64,000 nt of DNA from positions 984,082 to 1,048,081 of the forward strand of contig NZ_JDTH01000002.1 in the NCBI RefSeq assembly GCF_000710615.1, written 5' to 3'. Below, in pieces: positions 31,586 through 40,476 of the stretch (positions are counted from its first letter, which is position 1; each line of letters begins with the position of its first letter). The notes beneath the pieces are model-generated. The model made no database searches. It was given only the letters and a program-made list of their open reading frames with translations, and had not been told where the DNA came from. Made by a program: the position numbers and the translations under genes. The stretch is from Haladaptatus cibarius D43 (GTDB taxonomy: Archaea > Halobacteriota > Halobacteria > Halobacteriales > Haladaptataceae).

Positions 31586-31660
31586 GCTCCGTTGGTGTAG
31601 TCCGGCCAATCATCTTGCCCTCTCACGGCAAGGACCAGGGTTCGAATCCCTGACGGAGCA
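31586..31660 (+). tRNA. tRNA-Glu (anticodon CUC)
   Basis: 75 nt. The acceptor stem GCTCCGT pairs with ACGGAGC and is followed by discriminator A. The anticodon stem TTGCC/GGCAA encloses loop CTCTCAC, whose central triplet CTC reads GAG codons. The T-arm is CAGGG-TTCGAAT-CCCTG. No CCA is encoded. The 3' half serves as the integration site of the adjacent element: its last 42 nt are repeated at 37374-37415. Confidence 0.95.
31619..31660. other. att site, tRNA-side copy (attL)
   Basis: 42 bp from the anticodon loop to the tRNA 3' end, identical to 37374-37415. This is the usual target region of haloarchaeal tyrosine integrases. Confidence 0.85.
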
Positions 31661-31680
31661 CTCAACTTCTTCCAGTCTCC

Positions 31681-31704
31681 CAGTTTCGAGCGGTGGCAGT
31701 AGGT
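31681..31704. repeat. Left-arm repeat of the integrated element
   Basis: CAGTTTCGAGCGGTGGCAGT plus AGGT lies 21 bp after the tRNA. The same 24 bp with one mismatch occurs at 37558-37581, again 21 bp after a tRNA-end fragment. It therefore marks the left arm of a related element. Confidence 0.75.
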
Positions 31705-31933
31705 GTATCACGATGCCCCTTCAGGGCAATCACGAAACTCGGACGACCGCATCACGCCGCAGTATAGCGATTCCACCAAATTGTCCGGCACCCAGACTCG
31801 CCGGATTCACAAGTCATCGATGGGAGCGCCGTCTGTCGACTTTTACAAATTGTCGAGATAGAGTGAACGTCGATCAGACAGGGACACTCTTAGTTGGCCG
31901 ACGCGCAATCAGCAAGGAGTCTGTGAGCCACAT

Positions 31934-32278
31934 ATGAGCAACTTAGACGGCCTCACTATCGTCTCTGGCGTATCGGAACAACAGCTCAATCGACGCCAGC
32001 TCGTCGACTACCGATCGCAACGCACCGACTGTCTAAACTGGTTGCTGCACTTCGGAAAGAACCCAGTACACGTCGAGGGATATGCCTTCGAGACGGTTCG
32101 CGCGCGAGCGAATCGGATGGACATCTTCTATCGGTGGGTGTGGGAGCAAGAAGGTCGATACGTTTCGGACGTCACCCACGACCACGCCGATGAGTACATG
32201 AAATTTCTCGCTTACAAGGACACGAGCAACGTGGACAAAGCTAATCACCAGAAAGCGGTGAAGAAAACAGATCCATAG
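31934..32278 (+). pseudogene. Tyrosine integrase, N-terminal fragment
   Basis: 114 residues corresponding to the core-binding, SAM-like domain of haloarchaeal phage-type integrases. Recognisable stretches are YRSQRTDCLNWLL, ETVRARANRMDIFYRWVWEQEGRYV and THDHADEYMKFLAYKDTSNVDKANHQKAV. It then stops, with KKTDP. The catalytic domain (R..HxxR..Y) is absent here and not found elsewhere in the window. Position and direction beside the tRNA att site fit the element's own integrase. The fragment might still bind arm sites. Confidence 0.75.
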
Positions 32279-32443
32279 CCGGGAATTCCCGTCTTTCATT
32301 GTCCAGCGCGGCGGGGATGCCTATGACAGATACCAACGATCCTGAAGGCATTGTTTCAATGGCGATAGCAAACGTACCTGCTCAGTATGCTGAATCCTAT
32401 GTACGACAAGAGTTAATACACTATACATAGAATATGGACTGTG

Positions 32444-33010
32444 ATGTCGACGGACGACCAAACACCCACAGCGGCGAACCCAGAGGAGACGTTCAATAAT
32501 CTCCTCACGTACGCTGAACTTCTCAATACACCACGGCTGGCTCGTCTCTACATCTATATTCTTCAGAATGGCCCTGTCGAAATCGAGACGATCAAGCAAG
32601 ACCTCGGAATGGCACATTCAACGACCTACAAGTACGTTGGTCAACTCGAAGAGATGGATGTCCTGTCTCGAAATGAGGATGCGACGCCAACAACGGTTAC
32701 CGTCGTTCCAATTCGTCTGCAACTCGATACCGAACATGGAGATATTCTTGCGACACCCACACTGATCGATGCAATTGGACGGCAACTCGCGTCCGAGGAC
32801 ATCCGGGTGTTCGTCGAACGACAGGGAATCGCCAAATTGGCTGCTGCACTCCACTACACCCTTCGCGTTATGGATGGTGAGCTCACACAACGAACCGCAG
32901 CAAAGAAGCTCGGTGTCCATCCTGTCGAAGGAATGACCGTGTTCACGGCGCTCCAAGACGTCGTTGAGGATGCTGCATCCTATGACCCGTACTTGGAGCG
33001 TTCCAAATAA
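32444..33010 (+). CDS. HTH regulator / antitoxin-like partner of PIN protein
   Basis: About 188 residues from ATG 32444. TPRLARLYIYILQNGPVEIETIKQDLGMAHSTTYKYVGQLEEMDVL is a winged helix, and the C-terminal half includes EDIRVFVERQGIAKLAAALHYTLRVMDGELTQRTAAKKLGVHPVEGMTV, perhaps a second HTH. This resembles the DUF7437-type proteins found with PIN genes in haloarchaeal mobile elements. The stop TAA overlaps the PIN gene's ATG by one base, so the two are coupled. It is likely the antitoxin or repressor of the pair. A GTG one codon upstream is possible. Confidence 0.75.
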   Translation: MSTDDQTPTAANPEETFNNLLTYAELLNTPRLARLYIYILQNGPVEIETIKQDLGMAHSTTYKYVGQLEEMDVLSRNEDATPTTVTVVPIRLQLDTEHGDILATPTLIDAIGRQLASEDIRVFVERQGIAKLAAALHYTLRVMDGELTQRTAAKKLGVHPVEGMTVFTALQDVVEDAASYDPYLERSK

Positions 33011-33537
33011 TGGCCGGGACAACGATTCCAAGCGACAGCAAGGCCATTATCGACAGTAGCGTTCTCTTCGCGATGGGCGGCCCGTCGAATGGCAAATACC
33101 AAGCCTTCGAGCGGTTCGTCCGTCGGCAAAATATCACAGTGATTGTCCCTGAACAAGTAGCTGAAGAACTGGGTGAAAGTCCCGGCGCATACGAGTATCA
33201 ACGCGACCGGCTTCGAGCAGCCCAAGACGCTGGTTGGTTGTCGCCCGGTCACATCGATTTTTCCGTCTCGCGTGTTTCCGAAGTTGTAGACACGACCCGG
33301 ACGCGAATGGCAGCACTCTCAGCGGACGACGTCACGGAAGACGAGATCGAAAAGACGGACACGATTCTTGCGGGGTTGGCATATCAGTACGTTGCAGAGG
33401 GTGCCTCCCACGTCACGGTGTTTGTAAGCGACCGAATCGCAGAACGAGCGATTACTGATGCACTAGCGGCAGTTGATATCGAGGACCGAACGTCGGTCGT
33501 CGAAGGACGAGAGTTTTTAGGGAAACTTGTTGAGTAA
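33010..33537 (+). CDS. PIN-like nuclease, putative toxin
   Basis: A 175-residue protein. KAIIDSSVLFAMG starts the PIN fold (acidic D15). EQVAEELGE supplies the next acidic pair, ILAGLAYQYVAEGASHVTVFVSDRIAERAI the last strand with VSD. It is larger than VapC and nearer to the PIN-like domains paired with DUF7437 HTH proteins. Ribonuclease activity is inferred. Coupled by 1-nt overlap to the upstream HTH gene, in the integrated element next to the integrase fragment. Such pairs may stabilise the island. Confidence 0.75.
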   Translation: MAGTTIPSDSKAIIDSSVLFAMGGPSNGKYQAFERFVRRQNITVIVPEQVAEELGESPGAYEYQRDRLRAAQDAGWLSPGHIDFSVSRVSEVVDTTRTRMAALSADDVTEDEIEKTDTILAGLAYQYVAEGASHVTVFVSDRIAERAITDALAAVDIEDRTSVVEGREFLGKLVE

Positions 33538-33711
33538 TAATCATACGCCAAAAATCACTGCTTGTCTCCATGGGAACTGCCCCATACTGTAGTAGAGGAA
33601 TCGAATGTATTCGCTATTCAGATTGACTATTGTTTTCTATCTCCGCCTTAGAACTGCTTGTATTGTTCGTCGTTAAAATCATAACCCCAAATTATCAAGT
33701 TATATTGGGTA

Positions 33712-33736
33712 GTGAAACAGATTTACGTTGTTCCAC
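33712..33736. repeat. Palindromic 25-bp repeat, copy 1
   Basis: GTGAAACAG-ATTTACG-TTGTTCCAC. It matches 37120-37144 with two differences in the right arm and lies in the same orientation. The two copies bracket the AT-rich cassette. Confidence 0.75.
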
Positions 33737-33905
33737 AAGAAATCCTACTAGTCTACCAAAATAGTACGCCGTTAACATACCTAATACCTTCGGCGATTTT
33801 CTTGTAGTTCATAAAAAGCATGCTCGGCCTTTTCAGATGTCTATTACCAATTTGCCTTATTTTGAATCACGGGTTTGGCTGTTGTGTTCCTGGGTGGCAA
33901 GTTTC

Positions 33906-33936
<31 letters not shown>

Positions 33937-34032
33937 CTTAAGCCCATCTTTGAGAACAATTTCGCCAAGTGAGGTAAGCGTCTAGTACGAATACAGTTCG
34001 TCGGTTCCTAGTACCCAAATTCATTAGAAATA

Positions 34033-34857
34033 TTAAACAAACTTGGAAAGATAATCTACAACTGTTTCAATATCTTTTGAAGAGACATATAGCTTGTTTG
34101 GCTTACTACTAAGAAAATAACTTCGAATATTCTGTACTATGGGTATATGATATTCATCTTCGGCGGACTTCTCTTTCCATTTCAACGTAACAAAACCACG
34201 TTTTTTATCGGCGATTATTGCATCCAAATTTGTCAAATCATGACACGTATGTGGTGAATACTGTCGTTCTGATTTTGACAATTGGGAAACATCCTTTTCA
34301 TAGATTCGAAGTTCATGCGAGTTTATTTCGTAATGTTCACCCTTATCTAGCCACTCAAATACCGTTTTTTCAGGAACAACAATCCCTCCAGTTTCCTCAA
34401 GCATTCGTTCAAAATATTCGAAGTCAAAGTCACTTTTTATATCTAAATTTAGCTTTGCTATATGACTGTGGCTTTTACTAGCAGTAATAAAACACATCCA
34501 TTTCCCGGAATCATAAAATACGATTTCATGTGGAAACCAAAAATCAAGGCGTATTGCGATTTCTTTGATAGTTTGTATAACATCAACATTGCAAGGTAAT
34601 TCACCATAGTATTCCGTGAATCCTTCTTCTAATTCTGGCCAAAATCGTTTATTGTCTTCATTGATAATATTCAGACGTTTATTAAGGTCATTCATAACAT
34701 CACGATATTTGTCTAAAATCCTATCTTCGAATAGTATGGAGAATTCATTAGAATTTTGACAGAAAATATCAAGTAGTTGTATTTTACAATTTAGCACTTT
34801 TTTATCTGAAGAACTAACTACTCTATGGGTCGAATTTAAGTCATTATATCCTACCAT
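34033..34857 (-). CDS. Unrecognised 274-aa protein of the AT-rich cassette
   Basis: I do not recognise this protein. It is 274 residues, soluble, rich in Lys, Ile, Asn and Phe, and poor in the GC-rich codons of the flanking genes, pointing to recent transfer. The N-terminal half is helical (IQLLDIFCQNSNEF, DKYRDVMNDLNKRLNIINEDNKRF). The C-terminal half has short strands and an acidic/aromatic stretch, DFDFEYFERMLEETGG, before EKTVFEWLDKGEHYE. There is no signal peptide or membrane segment. It begins 52 bp after the Tat-exported Cys-rich gene on the same strand, so the two are probably co-transcribed, and an immunity or maturation role is possible. Confidence 0.65.
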   Translation of the reverse strand: MVGYNDLNSTHRVVSSSDKKVLNCKIQLLDIFCQNSNEFSILFEDRILDKYRDVMNDLNKRLNIINEDNKRFWPELEEGFTEYYGELPCNVDVIQTIKEIAIRLDFWFPHEIVFYDSGKWMCFITASKSHSHIAKLNLDIKSDFDFEYFERMLEETGGIVVPEKTVFEWLDKGEHYEINSHELRIYEKDVSQLSKSERQYSPHTCHDLTNLDAIIADKKRGFVTLKWKEKSAEDEYHIPIVQNIRSYFLSSKPNKLYVSSKDIETVVDYLSKFV

Positions 34858-34909
34858 ACTATCTACTAGTTACTATCTGCGAGAGCAAATAAGAACGTGG
34901 GTTGGAAAA

Positions 34910-35815
34910 TTAGACCAAGGGAACTCCTGTCGGTGGAGCGAGAGTCGATGCTGCAAGGTAATAAGCAAGGGCGATGACAACAAATGAGGGAATGGCAACA
35001 CCTGCTGCTGCTGCTCTGTCAATTACGTCTTCATAGAGATCGACAAGTGCAGATATACTAGGGAGTCCATTTTCAGGTCCACAAACGTCACAACATATTC
35101 TTGACTTGTTTTCTTCACCAGCCCACACACAGTTTTGATGGTGACCAGCCCAAAGGTTAAATCCTGAACCATTATAGTTCCCACTTTTATAAACAGCAAA
35201 ATGCCCGTGATTCATCGGGGGTACTGTTGTCGGTCCACGACAAATGTTTGTTTCACACAACAGAGAGCCATAGTCATCGGAATCAATACGCACACACCAT
35301 CCCATACCGCAAGCAACTCCGTTGCCTTTATAATCAACTAATAATGGCTCATCACTAATCTTTGTAAAATCACTGCTTTCTTTTGAAACATCATTTTGGA
35401 CTATGGGGTCACTTGATTCTGGCATTGGCCCTACATATCCTTCATAAGTAGCACCATCCATCGAAAACTGAATAGTGTCTGAATCTTTCCAGGACAAATT
35501 GTGTACACCATGATCAGCAGCCGTCCACGTTACCACCTGATCTGGTGAATCACTTTCCGAGTATACACCTGATACTCTGTACATTTGAAACCCATCACCA
35601 AGAATTGATGTCGTACAAAATGCATTTCCGTTAGAGCCAAAAAGAATCTCACCAGTATTTTGACTAAGTGGCTCGCTTTTAAATTCAGCCAATGATATCG
35701 TCTCATCACCGTACGCAGCACTTGATACGCTTGTTGCACCAAGTGTAGTAAGAACGGCTCCGAAGCCGATGTTTTTAATAATTGAACGCCGGTCGAATTT
35801 TTCGTTTCCACTCAT
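34910..35815 (-). CDS. Tat-exported Cys-rich protein, possible halocin-like precursor
   Basis: A 301-residue protein. DRRSIIKNIGFGAVLTTLGATSVSSA is a Tat signal (RR at 9-10) with a likely cleavage site after residue 33. The mature part is beta-rich to about residue 160. It then has nine cysteines in total (67, 169, 174, 187, 192, 229, 241, 242, 245), eight of them clustered at 169-245 and including CCDVC. A small helix follows, then a hydrophobic, Ala-rich tail (about 267-293). Known halocin C8 is made as a Tat-exported precursor of similar length, with an N-terminal immunity part and a Cys-rich C-terminal peptide. The sequences are not obviously homologous. A secreted antimicrobial or toxin is an inference from architecture. 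Confidence 0.65.
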   Translation of the reverse strand: MSGNEKFDRRSIIKNIGFGAVLTTLGATSVSSAAYGDETISLAEFKSEPLSQNTGEILFGSNGNAFCTTSILGDGFQMYRVSGVYSESDSPDQVVTWTAADHGVHNLSWKDSDTIQFSMDGATYEGYVGPMPESSDPIVQNDVSKESSDFTKISDEPLLVDYKGNGVACGMGWCVRIDSDDYGSLLCETNICRGPTTVPPMNHGHFAVYKSGNYNGSGFNLWAGHHQNCVWAGEENKSRICCDVCGPENGLPSISALVDLYEDVIDRAAAAGVAIPSFVVIALAYYLAASTLAPPTGVPLV

Positions 35816-36002
35816 ACATTATATTATATATGATAGTAATTTTATACTTTACTATTTTATTATAGTATCAAATACTAAGTCAAATTTATAATAAACCAAT
35901 CATATATTACCAATTAGTGTTACAAATCACAATTAAAATCTATTTAAAAATTTTTAATGTATGTGGGATTGTATGATGGAGTCTAATTATGAGGAATACG
36001 CC

Positions 36003-36027
36003 GAGTCAAGATTGCCTATAGGTCAAT
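36003..36027. repeat. 25-bp repeat, copy 1
   Basis: GAGTCAAGATTGCCTATAGG then TCAAT. It recurs at 37234-37258 with two differences. The right half of copy 2 is a palindrome (ATTGCC-TAGAG-GGCAAT). Confidence 0.7.
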
Positions 36028-36045
36028 CACGTAATTCGGACGATT

Positions 36046-36743
36046 CTACCATGGTGTTGCCATCGACGTGGCTGAGCAGGAGTTGCCAGCAGATGACATC
36101 AAAGTTCCTGCAGGGAGATTCTCAGCGAGAACGTCGCTGATCTGATTGTGGCTCGATGCCGATTCCCTGGTTGAAACGATGATGTGTGGCTCGTACCGCT
36201 CACCGCTAAACTGCTCGCTGCCGACTTCTTGCTCGATACTGTGCGCTTCACGCTGTGCCTGCATTCTACTGTCTTCGACCACGACGAACAGGTCGATGTC
36301 GCTTCTCCGATCAGCAGTGCCTCAAGCGACGCTGCCGAAGAGTGTAACGCCAATGTTCTCAGCGATTTGCTCTTCAAGTCGAGAGAGAGAGTCGCTCTGA
36401 CTGGGGCATGGTACTCCGGTTGCGGAATGGCTGTCACCGGATCACTCGGTTTGACGAGCATCACGGGATTAATCCGAACGGCGTTTGCTCGCCCGGATCG
36501 GTCAACATCAATTATACCGAGCGCGTCAAGGATGTTGACAGCAGCATTCACACCACTCATTCATCGACCCGTCACTCGATGGAGTGCTCGGTTTGTGAGG
36601 CTTCGCTCCGGATTATCAACAAGGAGATGGAGAATGTCGGCGGTTGCTCTGTGCCGGAAAGCGTCTGGATCACCAACCGGAATGGGAAGTCGGATGTATG
36701 CTCCGTCAGTTACCCGCTCTGTCTGAACCGTATTACGGTTCAT
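36046..36743 (-). pseudogene. HTH-nucleotidyltransferase protein, decayed
   Basis: Remains of one protein in two frames. From 36743: MNRNTVQTERVTDGAYIRLPIP with a winged helix (LHLLVDNPERSLTNRALHRVTGR), then an in-frame TGA and MSGVNAAVNILDALGIIDVDR. After a frame change near 36405 comes a MNT-type nucleotidyltransferase, ENIGVTLFGSVA-stop-GTADRRSDIDLFVVVED, where TGA replaces the Arg expected after GSVA (a CGA to TGA change would explain it). GS and D-D are the catalytic elements of minimal nucleotidyltransferases of MNT-HEPN toxin systems. At least three lesions make it a genuine pseudogene. Confidence 0.8.
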
Positions 36744-36853
36744 GAATGCTAATACGGTTCGATTGTTCGTAAAGAAGCTGGTTTAAAACGGGGTACTGCT
36801 TAGTTCTGTGCCTTCTCGGCAGGAGTTCGTCAATTAGCGTCCGATTCGGCCGG

Positions 36854-37144
36854 TCATGGCATGAACTCGTCTTCTATATTCTGCACAAACATTGCCACGG
36901 CGATCGCGACAGAATCCTTGAAGAGATTGAGACCGAGGTCACCGAACTGTTGTGCCTCCGCTTTCACCGTCCTGACAGTAAGGTCTTCGGTGTTGATGTG
37001 GCCGCATCGAAAATTTCTCCGAGAAGCCACGGGCGTGCCATTCGTTGGCATAGACTCGTTTGAAAATCGGTGAACTGGGTGACTAGACCAATTGTGGTAG
37101 TCTCGATTGCCAGCTCTGAGTGAAACAGATTTACGCTGTTTCAC
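36854..37144 (-). CDS. Short ORF, possible fragment
   Basis: 96 codons with no recognised domain. The C-terminal part (TVKAEAQQFGDLGLNLFKDSVAIAVAMFVQNIEDEF) looks like a real amphipathic helix pair, but the N-terminus reads through the palindromic repeat at 37120-37144. It may be the end of a gene truncated by that repeat. Listed with low confidence. Confidence 0.25.
   Translation of the reverse strand: MKQRKSVSLRAGNRDYHNWSSHPVHRFSNESMPTNGTPVASRRNFRCGHINTEDLTVRTVKAEAQQFGDLGLNLFKDSVAIAVAMFVQNIEDEFMP
37120..37144. repeat. Palindromic 25-bp repeat, copy 2
   Basis: GTGAAACAG-ATTTACG-CTGTTTCAC, a perfect 9-bp inverted repeat around a 7-nt centre. It is the pair of 33712-33736. Confidence 0.8.
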
Positions 37145-37233
37145 GCAACTTCACCACTCCCAGCTCTAACGGAGAACTGCTCAAATCCAGAGGGCAGTTA
37201 GTTTGTTCCTCAACCACTCCAATGGAACCCGCT

Positions 37234-37258
37234 GAGTCAAGATTGCCTAGAGGGCAAT
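37234..37258. repeat. 25-bp repeat, copy 2
   Basis: GAGTCAAGATTGCCTAGAGG then GCAAT. It pairs with 36003-36027 in direct orientation. The two bracket the nucleotidyltransferase remains. Confidence 0.7.
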
Positions 37259-37373
37259 GAACAGGTGCTTTATAAGTATCTACATCGAAATTCCGTTTGT
37301 CACCAGTTCATACTGGGGGAATCGGGAGGAAGTTCGGGTAGATTAGTCGGTTGAATGTGGTGAGTCGGGTTGG

Positions 37374-37415
37374 CCTCTCACGGCAAGGACCAGGGTTCGA
37401 ATCCCTGACGGAGCA
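37374..37415. other. att site, distal copy (attR)
   Basis: Exact 42-bp repeat of the tRNA-Glu 3' end at 31619-31660. It lacks the 5' half, so it is not a tRNA gene. Confidence 0.85.
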
Positions 37416-37516
37416 TTTTCCGAATGAAATGAGGAAAAGCGGACGCTCAGGGATTCGAGCAGACGAGTCGCACGCCCGGAACGGCCAAAGGCCGCATGCC
37501 CGGAACGTCTTGACGA

Positions 37517-37581
37517 GTTCGAATCCCTGACGGAGCATTCTTCTTTCCAACGTCACTCAGTTTTGAGCGGTGGCAGTAGGT
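37517..37581. other. Second tRNA-end fragment with left-arm repeat
   Basis: 21 bp of tRNA-Glu 3' end (37517-37537) are followed 20 bp later by the 24-bp left-arm repeat (37558-37581). This repeats the arrangement just downstream of the true tRNA and points to another, mostly lost, integration. Confidence 0.7.
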
Positions 37582-37694
37582 CGATTGTGTACGAGGTGCT
37601 GTCGTGGTTGTAACCTAACTACGGCAAATTTCGCTCGAATCGAGAGCAGTACTCCATTGCTCCCAGTGTTGCTACAAATCGTTTATTAGCCTGT

Positions 37695-37871
37695 TTAGGG
37701 ATTAAGAGCCCTTTTAACACACACTGCTCCGGGCAACACAAGGAAAAGAAGAGCGACAACATCGTTGAGAGTCACATCTGGGGCTGTGTAGTATAGCCAG
37801 AGGCCATAAACGACTCCACCGAAGCAGATGAGGGCTCCTATCGTAAACAGGGCTTTTTCATTTGAGCTCAT
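37695..37871 (-). CDS. Small two-helix membrane protein (58 aa)
   Basis: ATG 37871 to TAA at 37695-37697 encodes 58 residues with two hydrophobic helices (ALFTIGALICFGGVVYGLWLYY and DVVALLFLVLPGAVCV) separated by TAPDVTLN. Haloarchaea have many such short membrane proteins of unknown function. Its codons are less GC-rich than those of the glycosyltransferase downstream, and it lies just outside the tRNA-end fragments, so it may belong to a lost element. Confidence 0.6.
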   Translation of the reverse strand: MSSNEKALFTIGALICFGGVVYGLWLYYTAPDVTLNDVVALLFLVLPGAVCVKRALNP

Positions 37872-37959
37872 ATTCTGTGTAGCGTTCCTCCAAAAATATA
37901 ATTTCGCTTATATATAAACGGTTAGCACCCGGCGAGTGAACCGTTTCTCGGCGGAACAC

Positions 37960-38874
37960 CTACTCGACCACCGTCACGTCGAACTTCCCGCGCCAACGGT
38001 ACCGACGGTCGCCCCAGACGAACGTTCGACTGGCAAGTCCGTACAGAACGAGAGGTACGAACACGAATAGCGCCGGGTAAGCCAGCACGGCCGTCCATCG
38101 ACGGACGCCAAGAACCTCGTTGACGGCGAAATGTAGCACCGTTAGGATGACCAGCGCTGGGAGCGGGGCCAGGATTGCCCCTACGAGAACGAGTAGCGAC
38201 ACCAGCCACGTCCCGGCGACGGAACCGGGGAAATGCCATCGGAGAATCTGTGTCCACCGAACCGGGCGCTCGACCGACTCGCGGACGGTTCCCCCGATGG
38301 GGACGATGCGCGTCCGACCGACCGTCGTCACTTGGAGGTATTCCATGAGGAGTCCGTCGTCGCTGACAGTCCGTCGAAGTTCGCCAAGAAACGCGGCCTC
38401 GTCGATGTCACCGCGCTCGAACACGACCGCGCCGCCCCAAATCTGGTTGCCGAGATAGAGGGGCAACGAACCAGCGGAGGCGTATAGCGGTTCGAGTAAC
38501 ACCGATAAGGGGTCTTGCCCGACGAAGTACGGCACCTCCGACACCGGCCCGTGGTTCTCGTAGTCCGCGTTGAAGGTCGCCAGCCAGTCCGGAGGGTGGT
38601 GGTAGTCATCATCGGTCCAGACGAGACGGTCGTGGCGCGCGGCCTTCATTCCGGCGGCAATGGCATTGGCTTTCCCCGAACAGCCTTCCGGCTCTCCGGC
38701 AACGACGAATCGGACACCTTCGGGGTGGTCTTCCTGCTCGATGACGGGGTCATCCTCGTCATCGTGGATTATCAACAGTTCGTCGCTGTCTCCGAGCTGA
38801 GCGGCTAGTTCCGCACATGCGTCGGTCCACCTCGTCGTCGGTAGAAGGACACTCGTCGGCGGTCGGTCAGACAT
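37960..38874 (-). CDS. Family 2 glycosyltransferase
   Basis: A 304-residue GT-A enzyme. TSVLLPTTRWTDACAEL opens the nucleotide-sugar domain. ELLIIHDDEDD, a Gly/Lys region (GCSGKANAIAAGMKAA), and LVWTDDDYHH form the donor and metal site. A late region (VSDDGLLMEYLQ) corresponds to the D/E-D acceptor motif. Two or three C-terminal membrane helices (WLVSLLVLVGAILAPLPALVI and AYPALFVFVPLVLYGL) anchor it. The form resembles ceramide glucosyltransferase-like or dolichol-phosphate sugar transferases. Product unknown. It is divergent from a Bat-type regulator gene 98 bp away. Confidence 0.82.
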   Translation of the reverse strand: MSDRPPTSVLLPTTRWTDACAELAAQLGDSDELLIIHDDEDDPVIEQEDHPEGVRFVVAGEPEGCSGKANAIAAGMKAARHDRLVWTDDDYHHPPDWLATFNADYENHGPVSEVPYFVGQDPLSVLLEPLYASAGSLPLYLGNQIWGGAVVFERGDIDEAAFLGELRRTVSDDGLLMEYLQVTTVGRTRIVPIGGTVRESVERPVRWTQILRWHFPGSVAGTWLVSLLVLVGAILAPLPALVILTVLHFAVNEVLGVRRWTAVLAYPALFVFVPLVLYGLASRTFVWGDRRYRWRGKFDVTVVE

Positions 38875-38972
38875 GATGGTTACCCTTCCTCGTCCGGGGA
38901 TGATGAGCGCGTTGCCGGTAATCCACGGACGTTTATGATCAACGATTAGAAGATGGCACCCAATCGTAGCAT

Positions 38973-39635
38973 ATGCGTTATGTTACCGTCGTAGCCTATC
39001 CTGACGAGGAGGGAGTCAACCGACTCGACCGACGGGTCAACGAGTTGGAGCTGGAGTACCGGGCGATTCACCGCATGGAACTCCTCGCCGACGACACCGT
39101 CGCAATGTTCGCCGAGAGCCGCGGCGACATCGAAGGGGTTCGTCGAGTTCTCTCGGAGTCCCCCGAGGTCTTCGAGTTCTCGATTACCGGCGACGATGCC
39201 GGGTTCTTCTCCTACACGCGCTATGCGGCGGACGACCTGACCCGGATGCTCATGGAAGACCGGCGTGAATCGTCGTATTTGATAGATATGCCGGTAGAAC
39301 ACACCGACGACGGTGGTCTCCGAGTGACATACATCGGGACGCAGGCGGCCTTCACCGACGCCCTCTCCGAACAGCCGAAGGGCGTCCGGATTGAAGTCGA
39401 GCGAACCGGCCCGTACACGCCCGGCCCGCGTGATATCGTCTCTCGGCTAACCGAGCGCCAGCGCGAAGTACTTCAGGTAGCTGTCTGCCTCGGCTACTAC
39501 CAAGAACCCCGCGAAACGACTCACAACGAAATCGCGGCGACGACCGGCCTCTCCGAGACGACCGTCGGTGAGCACCTCCGAAAGATTGAGGCGGCCGTGT
39601 TCTCCTCGCTTCACGTCGGCGCTACCGACCGGTGA
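38973..39635 (+). CDS. Bat-type HTH transcriptional regulator
   Basis: A 220-residue protein. An N-terminal sensory domain (to about residue 150) is followed by a Bat HTH_10 domain: LTERQREVLQVAVCLGYYQEPRETTHNEIAATTGLSETTVGEHLRKIEAAVFSSL. The pattern from LT-RQ-EVL to TVGEHLR-E is diagnostic. These haloarchaeal regulators respond to redox, light or nutrient signals, and the ligand here is not evident. It is divergent from the glycosyltransferase gene and may control it. Confidence 0.87.
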   Translation: MRYVTVVAYPDEEGVNRLDRRVNELELEYRAIHRMELLADDTVAMFAESRGDIEGVRRVLSESPEVFEFSITGDDAGFFSYTRYAADDLTRMLMEDRRESSYLIDMPVEHTDDGGLRVTYIGTQAAFTDALSEQPKGVRIEVERTGPYTPGPRDIVSRLTERQREVLQVAVCLGYYQEPRETTHNEIAATTGLSETTVGEHLRKIEAAVFSSLHVGATDR

Positions 39636-40084
39636 TGCGACTGATTGTCTCGGATAACTTCGACTCTAGTTGGTTGTTTGTTACCGTTTACCGTGTGGTT
39701 TTATAGCACCGGCTCGTGACTCTGGGGCTGTGTTAGTCCTTAACGTCGTCCTCGCGTTCATCCCTGAACGTCCCGTAGACACGAATCAATACCCGAGCGT
39801 TTCCGCCTGGTGAACTTCGAATCCTCTCCGAGATAGTTCTAAACGAGATACCGTACTCCGAGTAAGGGAAAGAATGCGTTCATATGGTGAATAAATGACT
39901 ATCTAGCCAACAATATTGGATATCTTGCCATATTTAGTACAGAAAGTCAGACGATACTGCGTGAACCATTGGTGAATAACTATTCAGAATGGAGAAGAGT
40001 CGTGACCTGACCCAGTCGTCGGCCGTTGCCGAACCACGAGCAATGCGGCCGCATCCACGACTCGAAGTCGGCGATGAGAGAAAT
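39636..40084. other. Intergenic region, nothing recognised
   Basis: 449 bp between the Bat-type regulator and a truncated hydrolase. Short AT-rich stretches near 39880-39960 could hold the hydrolase promoter. No gene, repeat or stable structure is seen. Confidence 0.4.
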
Positions 40085-40432
40085 ATGATGCAGATTGACC
40101 ACACCCAACCAGAGATCGATACCGGTACCCTCCGCGCTGACGAACTTGATTCGGATGCACGAGCACTGTTAGATGCGCTGCAGGACGCAGGTGCACCGGA
40201 TCTCACGCAGCTGTCGCCCGAACAAACTCGAACGCTCCTCGGTGACCTGTTCACTCCAGATGTTGAACCCGAACCGGTTGCGTCGGTTAACCAACGAAAG
40301 ATTTCGGCGTACGCACGCGACATTCGTGTGCGAATCTACGACCCGAATCCAGACCAGATGCTCCCCGGAGTGGTCTACTTCCACGGTGGCGGGTGGGTCG
40401 TCGGCAACCTCGACACTGTAGTCTCCCGCTAA
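40085..40432 (+). pseudogene. Alpha/beta hydrolase (lipase family), 3'-truncated
   Basis: The intact N-terminal part (ALLDALQDAGAPDLTQLSPEQTRTLL, FTPDVEPEPVASV, RVRIYDP, VVYFHGGGWVVGNLDT) matches haloarchaeal HSL-type esterases up to and including the HGGGW oxyanion motif. The frame then ends within a few codons at 40430-40432. The catalytic GDSAGG, Asp and His are missing. The break falls just before CTCCGAGTGACACAGCTTAA, suggesting an insertion or deletion scar. The missing 3' half is not elsewhere in the window. Confidence 0.75.
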
Positions 40433-40476
40433 CTCCGAGTGACACAGCTTAAGTATTCTCCAGATAATCTTCGGAT

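Follow-up and report, generated by a model that had tools for sequence, protein, structure and literature searches.

A tRNA-Glu(CTC) locus with three layers

The window, the whole 64-kb stretch of Haladaptatus cibarius D43 DNA analysed here, contains one tRNA gene, which ARAGORN identified as tRNA-Glu(CTC) (31586-31660). Three layers lie behind it: a 5.7-kb integrated element (element 1), a 122-bp unit (37416-37537, hereafter the tail unit), and the arm of a decayed, related element (element 2). The small hairpin unit here sits between two larger integrated elements (Table 1).

A 65-nt repeat pairs 31640-31704 with 37517-37581 at 82% identity. It comprises the 21-nt tRNA end (37517-37537) and a 24-bp repeat (37558-37581) that differs by one mismatch from 31681-31704, with a spacing of 20 nt from the tRNA end in both places. 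The alignment thus confirmed that, as the initial annotation had described, a second tRNA-end fragment is followed by the same repeat at the same spacing as behind the real tRNA. The inverted T-arm piece (37447-37460) and GC-rich repeats that it had placed between the att copies were likewise found, the direct repeats within the unit being 37469-37483 and 37493-37507.

Table 1 Features at the tRNA-Glu(CTC) locus, in window coordinates.
Feature	Position	Strand	Basis
tRNA-Glu(CTC), intact	31586..31660	+	ARAGORN; Rfam tRNA, 53.5 bits; repeated block is the 3' end, T54-73
Left arm N, element 1	31661..31800	+	Present in 7/28 family genomes; adjoins tRNA-Glu(CTC) in 6/6 loci examined
Tyrosine recombinase, truncated N-terminal fragment	31934..32278	+	74-84% amino acid identity to ORFs beside tRNA-Glu in G009, G023 and G024
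Element 1 body, integrated	31661..37369	.	Flanked by tRNA and 46-bp copy; absent here in congeners
Element 1 content: TrmB/DUF7437 and weak PIN gene pair; AT-rich part	31661..37369	.
attR of element 1: tRNA 3' part repeated over 46 bp	37370..37415	+	98% identity
Tail unit, hairpin 1 (TTTTCC...GGAAAA), beginning right after the tRNA end	37416..37438	+	Fold; same stretch in congeners
Tail unit, IR-L: inverted T-loop, T-stem and, weakly, acceptor strand	37439..37460	+	Complementarity tests
Tail unit, conserved core; stem 37464-37470 / 37506-37512	37461..37516	+	Model R1, 83.3 bits at 37449-37529; covariation
Tail unit, 21-bp tRNA 3'-end copy (G53/T54 to discriminator)	37517..37537	+	21/21 match; block edges
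Left arm N', element 2, including 24-bp repeat 37558-37581	37538..37581	+	Similar arm after tRNA-end copy in G006
Element 2 body, probable remnant	37582..40423	.	Without congener synteny until about 40416; Pfam; right att missing
Element 2 content: glycosyltransferase, HVO_0513-like regulator, truncated possible hydrolase with weak Pfam hit	37582..40423

The two integrated elements

The arm that follows the tRNA end was detected in 7 of 28 genomes of the family and adjoined tRNA-Glu(CTC) in all six loci examined; the initial annotation had proposed a comparison with other tRNA-Glu elements in haloarchaea. Integrase sequence lay close to it in three genomes: a complete tyrosine recombinase (Pfam Phage_integrase) stands beside the arm in G024, and broken ones are carried by G009 and G023. 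The recombinase fragment in the window (31934-32278) had no Pfam hit itself. In G006 the arm was placed after a tail copy and not after the tRNA itself. Judged from these sequence comparisons, the repeated arm is integrative-element sequence, not common chromosome. Alignments with congeners had raised the idea that the 24-bp repeat is native chromosome, the case that the initial annotation had named as fatal to its own reading; we rejected it, the arm being patchy and integrase-linked.

Given that the arm occurs in this minority of genomes, beside tRNA-Glu(CTC) and with integrases, we conclude that a second related element once lay here. It has in common with element 1 the left arm, the spacing of that arm after a tRNA end and the link of the arm to integrases. 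In a synteny comparison with eight congeners of the genus Haladaptatus, congener-like chromosome resumed to the right of the tRNA at about 40416. The missing body of the second element is probably the stretch from 37538 to about 40423, for which this is our candidate. Its right end is gone: a third tRNA-end copy, i.e., the right att of element 2, was sought and none was found. At 40380-40440, a weak alpha/beta hydrolase frame stops abruptly where the congener-like chromosome begins, and this join is probably a deletion junction.

Element 2 lies behind the tail copy of the unit and perhaps used that copy as its site. Since the start of the unit is common to most congeners, the sequences favour an order in which element 2 entered the tail copy, rather than one in which the unit was inserted later. 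Element 1 is proposed to have entered later, at the true tRNA end.

Within element 1, a TrmB-like/DUF7437 regulator is followed by a weak PIN-domain protein (32441-33537), a layout like that of a toxin-antitoxin pair. The element also holds two families of direct repeats (35993-36027 / 37224-37258, 86%; 33711-33736 / 37119-37144, 92%), which suggest that it may be composite. Its AT-rich part (34001-36000; 35-38% GC) has two minus-strand ORFs, neither with a Pfam hit.

The locus had initially been read as serial or nested integrations at one att site. A finding of this kind is ordinary, and here it is right in part. The second related element stands, with its patchy, integrase-linked arm and its body, whereas more than its scar is needed to explain the tRNA fragment and the preceding 100 bp. 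If the fragment were only a scar left at the attachment site of a second element, one would expect the left-arm repeat that follows 37537 to be specific to elements and similar in kind to the repeat after the real tRNA, and it is both. However, the 100 bp and the 21-bp tail form one unit of an order-wide family that also occurs at tRNAs without such an element, and congeners have a unit at tRNA-Glu(CTC) without the arm. A scar origin of the fragment is contradicted by these observations, and we regard it as very improbable.

Anatomy, edges and empty sites of the tail units

From 5' to 3', the unit consists of hairpin 1 at the oligo-T behind the tRNA, IR-L (the inverted T-arm), the core and the tail copy. 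The sequence of the window unit recurs behind other tRNAs, and its length of 122 bp compares with about 99-160 bp per repeat elsewhere. The unit is too short for an integrase gene, which T-loop class elements carry, and no cargo gene was seen in the units.

Each unit ends in a copy of the 3' end of its own tRNA, from G53/T54 to base 73, with sharp edges. Identity between tRNA and copy was 0.58 and 0.38 just before the block, 0.96 at G53, 0.92-1.0 over T54-73, and 0.49 right after it. This profile covers the 91 of 144 pooled tRNA loci that have a copy (25 tRNA types); the pool was enriched for hits and entry required at least 17/20 matches, therefore only the edges of the block are informative.

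Two pairs of filled and empty sites were compared. When 126 bp (the unit and one tail) were subtracted from the Glu-TTC locus of G000, the remainder aligned without a break to unit-free G003, at 90% over 859 bp; subtraction of 99 bp from the Glu-CTC locus of G005 gave a match to unit-free G007 across the junction. In both pairs the tRNA is intact and the empty site exact; such sites could stem from deletion between tails as well as from a lack of insertion.

At Glu-CTC, the hairpin-1/IR-L start is common to different species and the cores differ. Five 21/21 tails stand in tandem in each of L164 and L166, and the L164 array is a mixture of cassette types. In L164, L166, L170 and L183, at Arg, Glu, Gly and Lys tRNAs, two to five units follow one another in tandem, and their tails are perfect or nearly so. 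At the Glu-CTC locus of G003 the first unit is followed by the truncated start of another, the sole case that hints at growth next to the tRNA. At tRNA-Tyr (L055, L046, L091), a unit is present in G003 and G007 and none in the genome to which the window belongs. Type-C cores contain an inner GC-rich hairpin that was also observed away from tRNAs (L038, L045, L047 and four Haladaptatus plasmids); it may be a small repeat in its own right that lies within the core.

Distribution and association with tRNA genes

A covariance model (R1) was built from 30 cores of types A and C. R1 matched all 28 genomes of the family, 271 of 293 Halobacteriales genomes (79 of 87 genera), and 92 of the 97 genomes in a class sample; because the model represents type A/C cores, these counts miss the other core types, B and D being known from sequence only. 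In a phylum sample (n = 294) there were 50 matches, all 50 within Halobacteriales; three of the misses listed fell within the order and the others outside it, and 224 more misses came on top of those listed. An exact pattern was found in nine stretches of named genome contigs, all haloarchaeal (Halorussus, Haladaptatus and Natronolimnohabitans).

Nearly all inspected R1 matches (73 of 75) lie directly behind a tRNA gene on the same strand. This was the case for 33 of the 35 best matches (31 with a tail copy of at least 17/21), for 20 of 20 further strong matches, and for 20 of 20 weaker ones (19 with a copy of at least 17/21). The two best matches without a tRNA gene (L145 and L153) carry tRNA-end relics.

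The association also appears without the model. In the genome of the window, 14 of 45 tRNAs have their own 3' end (at least 19/21) within 280 nt downstream, compared with 2 of 1980 pairs in which a tRNA was set against the downstream region of another and with 1 of 45 upstream regions, thus the tail copies are not due to chance. The window tRNA is scored as a miss in this count, as element 1 lies between it and its unit. With a threshold of at least 17/20 within 300 nt downstream, tails were detected at 14 of 44 tRNAs in G000 and at 23 of 41 in G107, a genome of another family, compared with 2 of 46 in the non-haloarchaeal control G300 from another order. Upstream copies numbered 1, 0 and 4 in G000, G107 and G300, respectively.

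Rfam searches of six unit-bearing loci matched only the tRNAs, at E up to 0.1, and the window unit had no Rfam match beyond one to tmRNA (14.7 bits) on the tRNA copy. A viral origin of the units was considered and rejected: 22 viral contigs match a short core pattern, and the model gave only three weak matches there, the best at 23.1 bits. In plasmid records, only the inner GC-rich hairpin is common to the unit and four Haladaptatus plasmids (25-27% of the query).

The order tail, inverted tail, tail has the form expected of a replication slip, in which template switching at the T-arm would produce a direct-inverted-direct triplication of the tRNA end without any mobility. Such a slip does not account for the conserved core that, at many different tRNAs and in 79 of 87 genera, separates the inverted copy from the second direct one, nor for cores that are common to unrelated tRNAs, and we hold this origin to be highly unlikely.

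Pairing within the units

Among 107 distinct rows, 97.8% of the cells of the core stem are paired, compared with at most 47.2% in slid registers, and the stem has 96 double-change cells compared with 21.4 in shuffled data. The alignment behind these values was fitted to the model; an unfitted alignment also has double changes in five of the six pairs.

IR-L is matched to its own tRNA. Its T-loop base is complementary in 92 of 100 rows (shuffled maximum 70; the 7 of 107 rows without the motif were dropped), and its T-stem in 179 of 260 (shuffled mean 125, maximum 147). These counts are not independent, because rows of the same tRNA type are related. The energy of the arm formed by IR-L and the tail was -10.7 versus -8.0 kcal/mol (84 of 91 units; 7 dropped), and -10.8 versus -8.05 kcal/mol when each of the 25 tRNA types was represented by a single unit. 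The acceptor part of IR-L alone, again with one unit per type, did not go beyond all shuffles, and acceptor-strand pairing is only suggestive.

Hairpin 1 also folds better than its shuffles, with a median z of -2.35 in 91 units and of -0.03 behind 53 unit-free tRNAs. The window unit as a whole has a predicted fold of -51.9 kcal/mol (z -4.05), in which the discriminator base alone is left unpaired at the end.

These folds, the strong covariation of the core stem and the fixed orientation behind the tRNA would all suit a structured RNA. The tRNA and the unit would then share a transcript that RNase Z cuts behind each of the two tails, releasing a small RNA whose 3' end resembles that of a tRNA, or the role of the unit might be to tune tRNA end formation; copies would multiply through unequal crossing-over and be kept by selection. 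It is less easily reconciled with close relatives that cleanly lack the unit at the same tRNA, or with cores that differ at one locus, and RNase Z needs no exact tail copies. We regard an RNA role as a serious rival, a real prospect though short of probable, and one that is compatible with mobile cassettes, since both can hold.

The fit of IR-L to the local tRNA bears on a further candidate, transposition of the Cas1 (casposase-like) or another type, in which the tRNA 3' end would define a duplicated target of ~20 bp. Arrays, and duplication at the 3' ends of tRNAs, recall casposon or CRISPR-like growth, and casposases are described as inserting at tRNA 3' ends (PMC6977970). However, the casposon duplication described in that paper is 14-15 bp long and consists of the last 4 bp of tRNA-Leu and 10 bp beyond, whereas the block of the units is wholly within the tRNA, and a target duplication would leave the fit of IR-L unexplained. 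We therefore consider this kind of transposition unlikely.

Insertion at the T-loop as the favoured origin

On balance, we lean towards the units being non-coding cassettes inserted at the tRNA T-loop by site-specific recombination. The 5' edge of the block is constant at the T-loop in all tRNA types and the 3' edge is at the gene end, from which we infer recombination at the T-loop. The exchange point would be G53/T54, and the cassette would end up between two tail copies (T54-73), therefore leaving the tRNA intact and making the displaced tail the right end of the cassette. The inverted T-arm would pair with the tail and, together with the conserved core stem, form a folded site of fixed orientation; repeated insertion would build tandem arrays, and recombination between tails would result in exact loss. 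By analogy with other integrases that use this part of the tRNA, the enzyme may be a putative tyrosine recombinase that uses the T-loop and that, like integron integrases, perhaps works on folded single strands. We infer, with caution, that insertion and not copying in place made the units, and that they move between tRNAs.

Several observations weigh against such cassettes. No recombinase is tied to the units, and they carry no visible cargo. The tail always fits the local tRNA, so plain site-specific transfer between tRNAs would need later conversion; haloarchaea have many chromosome copies, and the tail of a new tRNA could be acquired via conversion between them. Hairpin 1 pairs the oligo-T tract behind the tRNA, which also fits an RNA role.

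A broader proposal is a tRNA-anchored cassette system across Halobacteriales, with a T-loop entry site, hairpin units, tail-repeat arrays and a putative T-loop-specific recombinase; we advance it tentatively, as a possibility that is rather doubtful in this complete form. Spare tail copies may also act as decoys, drawing integrating viruses and plasmids away from the tRNA genes, an idea that the position of element 2 behind its copy would suggest.

Implications

Transfer RNA genes are classic landing sites of integrating elements. Tests of the tRNA sets of two genomes placed units behind a third to half of the tRNAs. Should this hold for nearly every haloarchaeal genome, a widespread part of the biology of tRNA genes has escaped notice, be it a mobile cassette system or a class of tRNA-linked RNA, and new in either case. 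The window unit belongs to an order-wide family of tRNA-trailing units of which our literature searches, within the text they returned, found no description. Its mobility or RNA function is testable, both readings being open to experiment in Haloferax volcanii or other tractable haloarchaea. For annotation, a tRNA fragment behind a haloarchaeal tRNA is by itself no evidence of a provirus.

Comparison with known systems

The tandem repeats of the Escherichia coli tyrT operon, with rtT RNA, lie behind a tRNA gene and each carry a copy of the tRNA 3' end; they are known from one operon in one lineage. The tail units share the position and the 3'-end copies, and differ in that almost every genome of an order has them, at many of its tRNAs, and in having no Rfam match.

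Integron attC sites have a two-stem hairpin anatomy and the recombination motif GTTRRRY. The units resemble integron cassettes in layout only, i.e., in an imperfect two-stem hairpin with an internal loop and variable tip, in fixed orientation, and in site-specific tandem arrays. Unlike those cassettes, they have the motif GTTCRAA instead of GTTRRRY, contain no gene, and are anchored at a tRNA gene.

Haloquadratum SMR-A, as presented in PMC3119063, is a repeat of about 110 bp with inverted repeats whose mobiliser is not known; it makes no target duplication and targets the palindromes of IS605-type elements. The units are likewise haloarchaeal, of about that size and built with inverted repeats, whereas their duplication is of about 20-21 bp and their place is behind tRNAs, and we do not count them as SMR-A. 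In Methanopyrus kandleri, a palindrome downstream of many tRNAs is reported, in the account given by PMC5217627, only from that species. It is also archaeal and behind many tRNAs, and differs in being a short motif about 10 bp behind the tRNA without a tRNA-end copy. Casposons share insertion at the tRNA 3' end with target duplication, as described in PMC6977970, but their duplication falls mostly outside the tRNA and their terminal repeats are independent of the target, whereas the block of the units is T54-73.

The T stem-loop is listed in PMC8371274 as one of three known sub-sites for tyrosine integrases at tRNAs. As in the integrative elements of this T-loop class, the identity block of the units runs from the T-loop to the tRNA 3' end and the tRNA is reconstituted. 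In contrast to those elements, the units are about 100-160 bp long, have no integrase, carry an inverted T-arm hairpin, and stand behind many tRNA types per genome, in arrays.
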